The notes under the pieces: generated by a model
The model's input: only the letters and a program-made list of their open reading frames with translations
The model's database searches: none
Told to the model about the DNA's origin: nothing
Source: Chloroflexota bacterium
GTDB taxonomy: Bacteria; Chloroflexota; Dehalococcoidia; Dehalococcoidales; RBG-16-60-22
Length of the DNA: 42,144 nt
Assembly: GCA_018829775.1 (NCBI GenBank)
Contig: JAHJTL010000019.1
Span: forward strand, 1 to 42,144
Direction: 5' to 3'
Program-made: the position numbers and the translations under genes
Part shown: positions 8,484-23,827 of the stretch, in pieces
Layout of the letters: each line of letters opens with the position of its first letter
How positions within the stretch are numbered: the first letter of the stretch is position 1

Positions 8484-9869
8484 TTATAGATAAGGCGAGG
8501 TAAGCGGCAGTTTGAGGCCGAACTGCTCGGAAAATTTTTGCCTCATCTTCCGGTAGAATTCGATACATTCTTTGTTCGGCCTTCCGGAAGCGATATCGAA
8601 ATAGTCCGGCAATTTCTTACCCAACGGTGGGTCCTGCAGTTTGTCTTCGTAATTTGCCAGCAGCGCGGCTACAATCTTGTTGGCCTCTTTCCGGCTCATG
8701 CCTGCGGCCGCATAAGCTACGGCGTTGCTGAAAATGTTTTCCAGGGGGTCACTGTAGTCCTCCATAATACCTTTTGAGGGAGGCCCAACCTCCACGGAGC
8801 CGCCGGATACCACAGTCGCTATCACCCAGGCAGCGAATTCCTGGTAGCACATTTCGGTCATCGGTCCGGCCGAGGTATAGCCGGGGGCAACGATGGGCAG
8901 CGGGCTGTTTCGGGTTGCTGCCTGAATACCCGCGCTCCGGGCCCAGATGATTCCTCGGGTGGATGTGGTGCCTCCTTCGATGGGAACCGCCAGCGGGTGC
9001 TGTACCACGCCGCGTATAACCAGCAGGTCAACCGGATGGTAGGCAGCACACACCACCGCCACCCCCGCCGGGCCACCGGCGTAGCCGCCCAGAATCACGC
9101 CGTTCTCCGCAAAGGTCAGGTTCCCCACGGCCTGGCAGTAAGCCACTTTGTTCAGGGCGTCAAAGTCGACCTTCAGCTCATGAATGGTGCCGATTTCCAG
9201 GACATCGGTCTTCGGATTGCCGAAGGCATGGCCGGCGATATGCTCCGTCGCCCGTACCGCCGAGGCCACCTCATTGACCACCGGCATCCCGGGACGTCCC
9301 GCCCGGCGCAGCGCCTCACGCACCAGAAGCACCGTCCTGATGGCGCCTTCCACACCTCGCGGGCTGCCCGCGACCAGGTCTCCGCCATCGAGGTTGGTTA
9401 AACAAGGAGCGGTAATACCGTATGACAGCGGGTCCTCGGCATACGTCTTCACCACATTGATAAGGTTCCACTCGGTGGAGACCGGGCCAGCCCCACAACC
9501 GGAGCACCAGGGAGGCGTCTTATCTTCAGGGACACGCCTCGGCATCAACCGGGCATCTTTCCCCTCCCCGTACACCACATTGCTTGGTGCCGACTCGATG
9601 GCACCATCTATCTCTTCCCGCGTGAACAGGATACGTCTTTCGGTATCCAGGCAGTAAACGCCGGTTTCGACCAGAAACTCCATGCCTGCTTGCCAGATAC
9701 GGTCAGCCAGGTCATCATCGGAGGGCACCGGGTTTTGAGGGTCATACTTAATACCATATTTTTCAATCACCTTGCGCAGGTTGGGCACGAAAATGCCGAG
9801 GTCAAAGTCCTTTTCCGTGCATATCGGGCCGGTCAATGCCCTCTCCACAACCGTATTAAAACTGAGCAT
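8484..9869 (-). CDS. MtmB-family (monomethylamine methyltransferase-like) corrinoid-dependent methyltransferase, Val at the pyrrolysine position
   Basis: The 461-residue protein resembles archaeal MtmB along its length, as recalled: KYGIKYDPQN, then AGMEFLVETGVYCLDTERR, AGRPGMPVV, an ILGGYAGG loop, GPMTEMC and LPDYFDIASGRP. In MtmB the segment AGRPGMGV is followed by pyrrolysine-202; here AGRPGMPV is followed by Val198. The frame has no internal amber codon, so the protein is a pyrrolysine-free homologue. Such enzymes move a methyl group from a substrate to a cob(I)alamin protein. Without pyrrolysine a different methyl donor, or a different activation chemistry, is likely. It is the downstream member of a tandem pair with the gene at 9912-11300 and is preceded by GGGAGA 7 bases from the ATG. 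The corrinoid protein is encoded two genes upstream. Databases may label it a trimethylamine or monomethylamine methyltransferase family protein. Confidence 0.85.
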   Translation of the reverse strand: MLSFNTVVERALTGPICTEKDFDLGIFVPNLRKVIEKYGIKYDPQNPVPSDDDLADRIWQAGMEFLVETGVYCLDTERRILFTREEIDGAIESAPSNVVYGEGKDARLMPRRVPEDKTPPWCSGCGAGPVSTEWNLINVVKTYAEDPLSYGITAPCLTNLDGGDLVAGSPRGVEGAIRTVLLVREALRRAGRPGMPVVNEVASAVRATEHIAGHAFGNPKTDVLEIGTIHELKVDFDALNKVAYCQAVGNLTFAENGVILGGYAGGPAGVAVVCAAYHPVDLLVIRGVVQHPLAVPIEGGTTSTRGIIWARSAGIQAATRNSPLPIVAPGYTSAGPMTEMCYQEFAAWVIATVVSGGSVEVGPPSKGIMEDYSDPLENIFSNAVAYAAAGMSRKEANKIVAALLANYEDKLQDPPLGKKLPDYFDIASGRPNKECIEFYRKMRQKFSEQFGLKLPLTSPYL

Positions 9870-9911
9870 AATCCGTCTCCCTTGTGTTACTTGTATTCTG
9901 TCCTATTCAAA

Positions 9912-11300
9912 TCAAAGGTAAGGCGAGGCACTGGTAAACCGAATGCCAAATTCGTCTGTCATTTCCTGCCTGATTTCCCGATATAGCTGTAGAAACTCCT
10001 GCTTCGGCTTACCGGTCGCGGTATCACAGCATTCCTGGTATTTTTGCCCGACCGGAGGCTCGCGGAGCTGTGATTCATATTTTTCCAGGAGAGCCTTTAC
10101 GATTTCATTGGCTTCCCTGCGACTCATGCCCGCCACGGCGTGAGCTACTTCACTGGCCAGAAGAGGCTCCACAGGGCTGGTGTAGTCGAGGGCGGTACCC
10201 CTTGCCGACGCCCCCACCTCAACCGAACCACCGGAAACCACCGAGGCGATGACCCAGGCACAGTGCTCATAGAAGAGCATTTTGGTCATCGGTCCGGCGG
10301 CGGAATAGCCGACGTTTACCACCGGCAGGGTGCTGTTTCGAGTAATGGCCTGATTGGACACGCTCCGTGCCCATACGGTGTCCCGCGCTGAGGTAACACC
10401 AAGGTCGAAATGGGTGGGGAAAGGGTGCTGCACGGCGCCGCGCAGAACCAGCAAGTCCACCGGATTGTAGGCGGCCGTTACCACAGCCACGCCCGCCGGC
10501 CCGCCGGCCAGCCCACCCAGTATGACTCCGTTCTCGGCAAAAATCAGGTTTCCGGCGGCCAGAGAATAGGCAACCTTGTTCATGGTATCGAAATCAACCT
10601 TCATCTCGTGGGTGGTCCCGATTTCCAGCGCGTCCGTTTTGCGAATTCCAAATCGATGGGCGGCAATATGCTCCTGTGCCCTTGACGCCGTAGTGACGCC
10701 ATTGACGATGGGCATCCCCGGACGCCCGGCACGGCGCATACCCTCACGGGTCAGCAGGACCGCCCTGATGGCGCCCTCTATCCCCAGCGGACTGCCCCCA
10801 ACTATCGGCTGTCCGTTCACCTGCGTTAAGCAGGGTATGGTTATGCCATCTCCCAGCGGATTCTCGGCATGTGCCTTGACCAGGTTGACGTAGTATAACT
10901 CCGATGAAAGCGGTGAGGAGGTCGGCCCGACCGAACACCACGGCGGTGTTTTGTCCTCCGGTACCCGCCTGGGCATGACACGGGTATCTTTTCCCTCGCC
11001 GAAGATACGACCGCACGGACCTGACGCCAGCGCGCCATCTATTTCCTCTCGACTGAAAATTATCCGGCGTTCGGTATCAACACAATAGACGCCGGTTTCG
11101 GCAATGAACTCCATCCCCGCCTGCCAGACGCGGTCAGCCAGGTCATCATCAGATGGCACCGGATTCTGGGGGTCATATTTAATGCCATACTTTTCAATTA
11201 CTTTGCGCAAATTGGCGACAAAGATACTGAGTTCAAAATCCCTTTCCGTGCAGATCGGGCCGGCTAACGCCCTCTCCACAACCGTCCAGAAACTTAACAT
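9912..11300 (-). CDS. MtmB-family corrinoid-dependent methyltransferase, second paralogue, Val at the pyrrolysine position
   Basis: This 462-residue paralogue of the neighbour at 8484-9869 differs from it at only 7 of the first 60 residues, but diverges more around residues 121-170 and in the C-terminal half. It shares AGMEFIAETGVYCVDTERR, AGRPGMPI followed by Val199 where MtmB has pyrrolysine, an ILGGLAGGPAG loop and GPMTKML. No internal amber codon is present. The Cys pair WCSGC of the neighbour is replaced by WCSVG here, so the two proteins may differ in metal or substrate handling. GGAAGGAG precedes the ATG at 11300 by 8 bases. The corrinoid protein gene lies 14 bases upstream, so the pair are almost certainly co-translated partners. 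The substrate is unknown. Confidence 0.85.
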   Translation of the reverse strand: MLSFWTVVERALAGPICTERDFELSIFVANLRKVIEKYGIKYDPQNPVPSDDDLADRVWQAGMEFIAETGVYCVDTERRIIFSREEIDGALASGPCGRIFGEGKDTRVMPRRVPEDKTPPWCSVGPTSSPLSSELYYVNLVKAHAENPLGDGITIPCLTQVNGQPIVGGSPLGIEGAIRAVLLTREGMRRAGRPGMPIVNGVTTASRAQEHIAAHRFGIRKTDALEIGTTHEMKVDFDTMNKVAYSLAAGNLIFAENGVILGGLAGGPAGVAVVTAAYNPVDLLVLRGAVQHPFPTHFDLGVTSARDTVWARSVSNQAITRNSTLPVVNVGYSAAGPMTKMLFYEHCAWVIASVVSGGSVEVGASARGTALDYTSPVEPLLASEVAHAVAGMSRREANEIVKALLEKYESQLREPPVGQKYQECCDTATGKPKQEFLQLYREIRQEMTDEFGIRFTSASPYL

Positions 11301-11314
11301 GCACTGACTCCTTC

Positions 11315-11968
11315 CTACTTTTGCGAGAGCGCCTTCAATGCCAGAGTTGCCGCATCACCGGCGGTTCTGCCATATCCGTCAGCACCGATGCTGTCGGCCC
11401 ATTCCTGCGTGGTCGAGCCGCCACCGACCAGGAAGCGGTACTTGCCACGTGCGCCACGCGCCTCAAGGTGCTCAATGATGTTCTTCTGCTGCGGTATGGT
11501 GGTGCTCATCAGCGCTGAAGCAGCAATGATATCGGCACCGACTTCCTCGGCTTTGTTAACAAAGGCAGAAGCGGCGACATCAACCCCGAGGTCGAAAACC
11601 TCAAAGCCGTTCATTTTAAGCATCGCCCCAACGATATTTTTACCGATGGAATGGATATCCCCCTTTACCGTGCCGATGACCACCTTCCCCACTTTCTTAC
11701 GTTCTTCCCCGGACTCCAGCAGCTTTGGCTCCAGAATTTTCATCGCGCTCTCCCAGGCCTCCGCCGCCATCATCATTTCCGGCAGATAAATCTCATACCG
11801 GGCGAACCGGTCGCCCACCTCTTTCATACCCGGCGACATTCCTTTTTCGATGATATCAGATGGTCTGATGCCCTCTTTCAGGGCCTCTCCAATCGCCTGC
11901 CCCAGACCACCCGTGTCGCCGGCGATAATGGAATTGTACAACTGTTCAAAAATAGCCTTGTCTGTCAT
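11315..11968 (-). CDS. Corrinoid (cobalamin-binding) methyl-carrier protein, MtmC/MtbC-like
   Basis: This 217-residue protein has an N-terminal helical cap (about 1-90) and a Rossmann-like B12 domain. The axial His lies in the motif GDIHSIGKN (DxHxxG type), followed by the SALMSTT and GGGSTTQEWADSIGADGY loops that hold the nucleotide tail of the cofactor. It carries the methyl group from a substrate-specific methyltransferase to an acceptor enzyme. Its place directly before two MtmB-family genes fits this role. No reductive activase (RamA-like) or second methyltransferase (MtbA/MtrH-like) is present in the window, so those would have to come from elsewhere. AAAGGAG lies 8 bases before the ATG. 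The 28-base gap to radC has no visible promoter and no cobalamin riboswitch. Confidence 0.93.
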   Translation of the reverse strand: MTDKAIFEQLYNSIIAGDTGGLGQAIGEALKEGIRPSDIIEKGMSPGMKEVGDRFARYEIYLPEMMMAAEAWESAMKILEPKLLESGEERKKVGKVVIGTVKGDIHSIGKNIVGAMLKMNGFEVFDLGVDVAASAFVNKAEEVGADIIAASALMSTTIPQQKNIIEHLEARGARGKYRFLVGGGSTTQEWADSIGADGYGRTAGDAATLALKALSQK

Positions 11969-21352: not shown

Positions 21353-23323
21353 TTACAGCCTGCCCTCGACAAGGCTCTCAACTACCGACGGGTCGGCCAG
21401 CGTGCTGGTATCTCCCAGATTGCTGACATCTCCCGCCGCAATCTTGACCAGAATACGGCGCATGATTTTTCCGCTCCGGGTCTTGGGTAGGCCCTCAGCA
21501 AACTGGATTCTATCCGGCGTGGCGATGGGCCCGATTTCCTTGCGGACGTGGGCCACGAGCTCCTTTTTGAGGTCATCACCGTCTTCCATGCCTGCCACCA
21601 GAGTTACGTAGGCGTAAATGCCCTGTCCCTTTACCTCATGGGGCATGCCGACCACCGCCGCCTCGGCCACCTTACCATGTGATACCAGTGCGCTTTCAAC
21701 CTCGGCGGTACCGATGCGATGACCGGAGACATTGATAACGTCATCGATACGGCCCATCAGCCAGTAGTAGCCGTCCTCGTCTATCCTGGCCCCGTCACCG
21801 GTGGTGTAAACGCCCGGGAAACGGACAAAATATGTTTCCTTGAATCGTTTCGGGTCACCGTAAACACCGCGCATCAGGCCAGGCCAGGGCCGTTTCATCA
21901 CCAGGTAACCGCCCTCATTCACCCCCACGGTTGAGCCGTCTTCACGCAGTATTGCCGGCTCCACGCCGAAGAAAGGCACGCCGGCTGAGCCGGGCTTGGC
22001 TGGCATGGCGCCGGGGAAAGTGGTGATAAGAACGCCTCCCGTTTCGGTCTGCCACCAGGTATCGATAATCGGGCACTTTCCCTTGCCGATAACGTTGTAA
22101 TACCACATCCAGGCTTCGGGGTTTATCGGCTCACCCACTGTTCCCAGAAGCCGTAACGAGCTCAGGTCGTGTTTGTTGGGCCACTCCTCACCCTCGCGCA
22201 TGAGGGCGCGTATCGCAGTGGGTGCGGTATAGAAGATGGTAACCTGATATTTCTCCACGATATCCCAGAACCGGTCGACATGCGGATAGGTGGGGACACC
22301 TTCGAACATAATACACGTGGCGCCAAGGGCCAGGGGCCCGTAGACAATGTACGAATGACCGGTCACCCAGCCGATGTCCGCCGTGCACCAGTAAACATCC
22401 TCTTCCTTGGCATCGAAAATCCACTTGAACGTCTGATAGGTGTGCAGCAGATAGCCCGCCTGGGTGTGCATCACGCCCTTCGGTTTGCCGGTACTGCCGC
22501 TCGTGTAGAGGATGAAGAGGGGGTCTTCTGAATCCAATACCGCCACATCGCACACGGGCTTGATTTCCACGCCGGCCATAAGGTCATGCCACCACCGGTC
22601 ACGGCCTTCCTGCATGGGTATGCCGATATCCGCCCGCTTAACCACGATGACGTTATTTACATCAGGGCAGGACTCAAGCGCCTGGTCGGCATTATCCTTG
22701 CTGCGGATGACACGGCCGCCGCGATAGTAGCCATCACAGCAAATGAGCGTTTCCGAGCCGCAGTCCAGTATCCGGTCGCGCAGGGCTTCTGCACTGAAGC
22801 CGCCGAAGATGACGCTGTGAATGGCGCCGATACGCGCACAGGCCAGCATGGCAATGGGCAATTCCACTATCATGGGAAGATAAATGGAAACACGGTCGCC
22901 CTTCTTAACCCCCAGCTTCCGCAGAACGTTGGCGAATTTGCACACCTCGCGGTAGAGCTGCTGGTAGGTCACTACCCTGGTATCACCGATGTCGCCTTCC
23001 CAGATGAGCGCCGCCTTGTTTTTACGCCACGTACCTATATGACGGTCAATGCAGTTATAGCTCACATTCAGCTTGCCGCCGACGAACCACTGATGCTTCC
23101 CTTCGCCAAAATCAGCTTCCACGACCTTGTCCCACTTCTTGAACCAGTCGAGCTGTTCCGCCATTTCACCCCAGAACCCCTCCGGATCATCTATGGAACG
23201 CCGGTATAGCTTCTTATATTCATCCATGCTCTGGATGTATGCTGCCTCTCTAAATTCCTTCGGGGGATTGAAACTTCTCTTTTCCCCCATCATCGAAGTA
23301 ATCCCTTTTACTTCGTTCATCAA
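21353..23323 (-). CDS. acs: Acetyl-CoA synthetase (AMP-forming), inside the ATP synthase operon
   Basis: The 656-residue protein matches full-length Acs. It has the N-terminal domain [21 protein letters not shown], the P-loop-like [15 protein letters not shown], the WWQTETGG core motif and the C-terminal [13 protein letters not shown], whose Lys is the usual acetylation switch. It makes acetyl-CoA from acetate, CoA and ATP. It lies between a cNMP-domain gene (48-base gap) and atpA (42-base gap), on the same strand and with a good GGAGGA ribosome-binding site. This suggests it is transcribed with the ATP synthase. The operon position is atypical; the enzyme itself looks normal. Confidence 0.96.
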
Positions 23324-23371
23324 ATCCTCCGTCCAATTCTCAACCGCTAACTACAAAATATCTGCTATTAA

Positions 23372-23827
23372 TTAGTCCTGTGCGGTAACGCCCATCAACT
23401 GCGTATAGGCGCTATTGAGCCTGGTGGCAATTGTCTGGGCGACGCCCCGGTTTATTTTGCACCCAATCTGGGGATGAGTCTGGCAAAGCTGAGCGAGCTC
23501 CTTGCCCTTGAATGCCAGCACCTTCGTGGTCTCGATTGCCCTTACCGTGGTGTACATACGATGGGGAGGCAATATTGCCGACCAGCACACCAGTTCAAAG
23601 TTCGATGCCGCCTGTATCTGGCGGTGCATCATCGGGCCCAGTTCCAGGTATATGCCAACAAGACCGTCCTCAATGATGAATACCTTCTCCTGGCTCCTGC
23701 CCTGCTTGCCCAGGCTCTCCCCAACTTCATAGACTTCACTGGTTGCCATGTCGGCAATTATTTTCAATTGCTCCTCATCTAACTCATGAAACATGGGACA
23801 TCGCTTCAGTACCTCAATCTTTTCCAT
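23372..23827 (-). CDS. Cyclic nucleotide-binding (Crp-like) domain protein without DNA-binding domain
   Basis: This 151-residue protein is a single cNMP-binding beta-barrel (IEVLKRCPMFHELDEEQLKIIADMA at the start; EVGESLGKQGRSQEKVFIIEDGLVGIYLE in the barrel) with a short C-terminal helix and no helix-turn-helix. The phosphate-binding cassette looks degenerate. Where cAMP binders have Gly-Glu and then Arg-Ser/Thr-Ala, this has CWSAILPPHRMYTTVRA, keeping an Arg but not the Gly-Glu. It may bind another ligand or act as a protein-interaction module. It sits between atpH (41 bases) and acs (48 bases). A role in controlling Acs or the ATP synthase is suggested only by position. Confidence 0.82.
   Translation of the reverse strand: MEKIEVLKRCPMFHELDEEQLKIIADMATSEVYEVGESLGKQGRSQEKVFIIEDGLVGIYLELGPMMHRQIQAASNFELVCWSAILPPHRMYTTVRAIETTKVLAFKGKELAQLCQTHPQIGCKINRGVAQTIATRLNSAYTQLMGVTAQD

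Follow-up and report, generated by a model that had tools for sequence, protein, structure and literature searches.

A pyrrolysine-free pair of MtmB-family methyltransferases encoded with a corrinoid protein in Dehalococcoidia

MtmB-family methyltransferases without pyrrolysine (Pyl) have been in the literature since at least 2010, and amber-free homologues of the monomethylamine methyltransferase were noted already in PMC2933860. The first non-Pyl MtmB with a demonstrated function is MtqB of Methanococcoides methylutens Q3c, reported in 2026, which demethylates tetramethylammonium and choline, and whose docked pocket was described as rich in methionine, cysteine and aromatic residues and not acidic (PMC13044021). 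The remaining non-Pyl members of the 1,061-sequence Pyl/non-Pyl MtmB tree in the same study are of unknown function. A bacterial homologue without pyrrolysine, Ga0180325_111810 of 'Ca. Formimonas warabiya' strain DCMF, comes from a host with the Wood-Ljungdahl pathway and is strongly induced on dichloromethane (PMC9768040). In the MttB superfamily, the glycine betaine methyltransferase MtgB (2qne, 9yce) is likewise a Pyl-free, corrinoid-dependent and folate-linked TIM barrel. A sequence-only reading of the DNA analysed here had stated that pyrrolysine-free MtmB-type enzymes are little described, which these reports make out of date. We describe two such proteins, A and B, from a Chloroflexota bacterium; they are real enzymes of a kind already known, and new members of it.

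The window, i.e., the whole stretch of 42,144 nucleotides that was analysed, is contig C19 of a draft genome (2.16 Mb in 118 contigs, 95.6% complete). Three consecutive genes on its minus strand form an operon-like row, consisting of a gene for an MtxC-type corrinoid protein (11315..11968), which comes first and lies 15 bp upstream of the next, the gene for methyltransferase A (9912..11300; 462 aa) and the gene for methyltransferase B (8484..9869; 461 aa). The two methyltransferase frames are full length, and the internal stop count was 0 for both, which confirmed the absence of an amber codon reported from the sequence alone. The corrinoid protein matched PF02607, PF02310 and TIGR02370 (methyltransferase cognate corrinoid protein; 217.1 bits vs a cut-off of 215.3), and it is likely the methyl acceptor. 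The neighbours of the row on the plus strand are DapA-family, enolase-superfamily and phosphotriesterase-family genes, which suggests sugar-acid-like catabolism; neither a quaternary-amine transporter nor a product-processing gene was found beside the row. At 21353-23827 of the window, within an F-type ATP synthase row, the genes for the delta and alpha subunits are separated by one gene each for an acetyl-CoA-synthetase-like protein and a cNMP-binding-domain protein.

The PF05369 profile covered the whole length of A (307.1 bits) and B (284.6 bits) against a cut-off of 25, and no second Pfam family was detected in either protein at E 0.001. The two proteins are 65% identical to each other, and each is about 30% identical to MtmB1 of Methanosarcina barkeri over the whole chain. 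The AlphaFold2 prediction of A had a pLDDT of 93.5 and a pTM of 0.93, and its closest solved structures were the three M. barkeri MtmB entries (1nth, 1l2q and 1tv2), with TM 0.94, Z 57.9 and an rmsd of 1.5 Å over 451 residues for 1nth. The fold match was obtained with the model of A, and B is taken to share it from its identity to A. The match of the A model to MttB and MtgB (Z about 24; 13% identity to MtgB) was far below that to MtmB. Furthermore, no PF06253 match was found in A, in B or anywhere in the genome, and membership of the MttB superfamily was therefore ruled out. The assignment to the MtmB family thus held against the MttB profile, by both profile and predicted structure. As PF05369 proteins without pyrrolysine that have a cognate MtxC corrinoid gene, A and B are non-Pyl MtmB homologues, like MtqB, which also has its own corrinoid protein gene nearby.

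Because Pyl-encoding systems were found in some Chloroflexi in a 2017 study (PMC5424206), the absence of pyrrolysine here needed to be checked rather than assumed. Of the genes pylT, pylS, pylB, pylC and pylD, for which a genome search had been proposed, PylS and PylD were covered, and neither was detected above the cut-off in the 95.6% complete genome. The best weak PylS match is located in an ORF that, by inspection, resembles a lysyl-tRNA synthetase. No internal stop occurred among the PF05369 matches listed for 400 genomes of the phylum and 393 of the class. From these results, cryptic use of pyrrolysine was rejected; the in-frame amber codon that marks a Pyl-dependent MtmB sensu stricto is absent from A and B, and the accompanying PylS and PylD were not detected above the cut-off.

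The motif of M. barkeri MtmB around this position is AGRPGMGV-Pyl202-GPETS, while the two window proteins read AGRPGMPIVNGVTT and AGRPGMPVVNEVAS and are one residue longer. The sequence-only reading had placed Val199 of A and Val198 of B at the pyrrolysine column. Opposite Pyl202, valine was found with five of eight MAFFT settings and asparagine with three, and the phmmer alignments disagreed in the same way, giving valine for B and asparagine for A. In the AlphaFold2 model of A, the strand is formed by residues 198-200 (I-V-N). In that of a relative without the extra residue (L026), which aligns to MtmB free of gaps in this region, the strand is formed by residues 199-201 (A-I-G), and the third residue is the pyrrolysine column. 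The next helix begins 8 residues past the end of the strand in both models, while the distance from the preceding helix to the start of the strand is 8 residues in A and 7 in L026. The extra residue should therefore precede the strand, which makes asparagine the likelier equivalent of pyrrolysine. From these secondary-structure boundaries of two predicted models, compared without coordinate superposition, Asn200 of A, rather than Val199, is the likelier counterpart of Pyl202, and by homology with A the same would hold for Asn199, rather than Val198, of B. The placement of valine at this column is thus doubtful. In the L-INS-i alignment, the asparagine was present in every one of the 27 rows that make up the window clades, L035 and the archaeal sister clade, and the residue before it was Val, Met or Ile.

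Positions 229, 259 and 335 of M. barkeri MtmB are presumably cavity-lining in the MtmB structures. In the L-INS-i alignment, the Glu, Glu and Tyr at these positions were retained in 16 of 16 rows of the A and B clades and in L035, and they correspond to Glu226, Glu256 and Tyr332 of A and to Glu225, Glu255 and Tyr331 of B. Both glutamates occurred only in the A clade, the B clade and the near relative L035 (17 rows of the alignment); two Bathyarchaeota rows had Glu259 without Glu229, and Tyr335 was retained also in the archaeal and L028-type rows. The retention of these residues, the MtmB fold and the slight monomethylamine activity of MtqB (PMC13044021) would fit a pair of monomethylamine methyltransferases after all, in which Asn or Val dispenses with pyrrolysine, but Pyl202 and Gln333 are both replaced in the A and B clades, and we consider this very improbable. 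In our reading of the alignment, a pocket that retains the acidic residues of MtmB may still suit a cation. The two glutamates of the window clades, compared with the published description of the sulphur- and aromatic-rich pocket of MtqB, suggest a different pocket, and the substrates of MtqB may therefore not carry over to A and B.

In the phylogenetic tree, A and B fell into two distinct clades with good support (98/92 and 100/99), and both clades include orthologues from other Dehalococcoidia. The closest relatives of A and B came from MAGs labelled Dehalococcoidia or Chloroflexi, which makes a Dehalococcoidia host very likely. A third MtmB-family copy of the same genome, on contig C6 (L039), fell with the B clade. 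The PF05369 family is sparse, being present in 7 of 400 sampled Chloroflexota genomes and in 11 of 393 sampled members of the class. The dN/dS values against orthologues were 0.05-0.09 within each close clade and up to 0.15 overall, and this purifying selection indicates that A and B are working genes. Both in the window and in each of the seven relatives for which the upstream sequence was long enough (L004-L009 and L057), the corrinoid gene precedes A at a distance of 15-53 bp, and many MtmB genes of archaea and of other Chloroflexota likewise have a corrinoid gene next to them. The full order corrinoid-A-B was found in the window, L004, L005, L006 and L057, a count that leaves out L010, in which the sequence ends there. 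Contamination or a pseudogene is countered by this conserved gene order and by the dN/dS of 0.05-0.15.

The neighbouring genes differed between the related loci. In two of them, at L005:7284-8891 and at L006:6952-8352, the site beside the MtmB pair that holds the enolase-superfamily and phosphotriesterase-family genes in the window is taken by a gene for a conserved protein (466-535 aa) that matches no Pfam family. In two Bathyarchaeota (L011:10001-11377 and L013:9977-11371), an MtmB homologue with no adjacent corrinoid gene follows a shikimate-pathway operon that spans DHQ synthase II to prephenate dehydrogenase.

The genome encodes five MtxC-type corrinoid proteins in all. Contig C8 carries acetyl-CoA synthase, an AcsE-like pterin-binding methyltransferase and a RACo activase. 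A corrinoid cluster on C82 (L050, G000:C82:1-20000) carries a second RACo, a pterin-binding methyltransferase, an MtxC corrinoid protein, four URO-D-family proteins, an ADP-ribosylglycohydrolase and a class III aminotransferase. These two gene sets are the requirements of a folate-linked methyltransferase economy, and their pterin methyltransferases are on contigs other than that of the window. Class III aminotransferase genes are located also near the Pyl-free MtmB genes of L008, L009 and L039, and ornithine-cyclodeaminase-family genes near those of L008 and L039. Together with the C82 aminotransferase, these neighbours would fit a pair that acts ahead of transamination and removes methyl groups, without the help of pyrrolysine, from methylated amino acids or from other metabolites with an N-methyl group (secondary or tertiary amines). 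We regard this as unlikely: the association is a raw co-occurrence without a background rate, neither kind of gene adjoins the window pair, and pyrrolysine is thought necessary precisely for simple amines (PMC9842639, PMC2933860).

With moderate confidence, we propose that A and B are corrinoid-dependent methyltransferases whose donor does not require pyrrolysine and is probably a cationic quaternary amine, and that the methyl group passes to folate and the Wood-Ljungdahl pathway. The two TIM barrels would take up a methylated donor, probably one with a positive charge, in a pocket that has retained acidic residues of MtmB but not pyrrolysine, and a methyl group of this donor would go to Co(I) of the corrinoid protein whose gene lies directly upstream. 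A separate pterin-binding methyltransferase would then pass the methyl group to tetrahydrofolate, from which it would enter the Wood-Ljungdahl pathway, while a RamA-like activase would maintain the reduced cobalt. In the case of MtqB, on the other hand, the methyl groups go to coenzyme M and methane. A and B probably have different substrates. The quaternary-amine reading is supported by the demonstrated substrates of MtqB (PMC13044021). The sequence-only reading had already suggested a quaternary amine or another methyl donor that does not need pyrrolysine. As a proposal this is sound, given the Pyl-free proteins and the MtqB precedent. The quaternary-amine reading is weakened by the surroundings of the row, in which neither a transporter nor a product-processing gene for such a donor was found, by the non-acidic pocket described for MtqB and by the location of the pterin methyltransferases on other contigs.

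Dehalococcoidia are known for organohalide metabolism, which is in favour of a non-amine donor, such as a halogenated methane, demethylated by the same corrinoid chemistry. The most induced protein of strain DCMF on dichloromethane, with a log fold change of +11.87, is its non-Pyl MtmB-superfamily protein (PMC9768040). However, CdmB, which acts on chloromethane, belongs to the URO-D family and has a hydrophobic channel (PMC13222342), the two barrel glutamates of the window clades fit a cation better, and neither the window nor the regions read showed a mec- or cdm-like cassette. A halogenated donor is thus quite unlikely, and a cationic quaternary amine is still the donor that we favour.

What is notable in the A and B clades is the retained glutamate pair, the likely asparagine at the pyrrolysine position and the two conserved paralogues per corrinoid gene. 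It is possible, though we hold it only tentatively, that they represent a Pyl-free MtmB clade of Dehalococcoidia with an acidic pair and a new methyl donor, in which two paralogues act on one corrinoid protein and feed the Wood-Ljungdahl pathway. If this is true, an undescribed methylated compound would be tied to the Wood-Ljungdahl carbon metabolism of uncultured Chloroflexota. A Pyl-free clade that retains the acidic residues of MtmB is a good test case for the role of pyrrolysine and for alternative substrates, and the pair suggests that uncultured Dehalococcoidia obtain carbon by methylotrophy.
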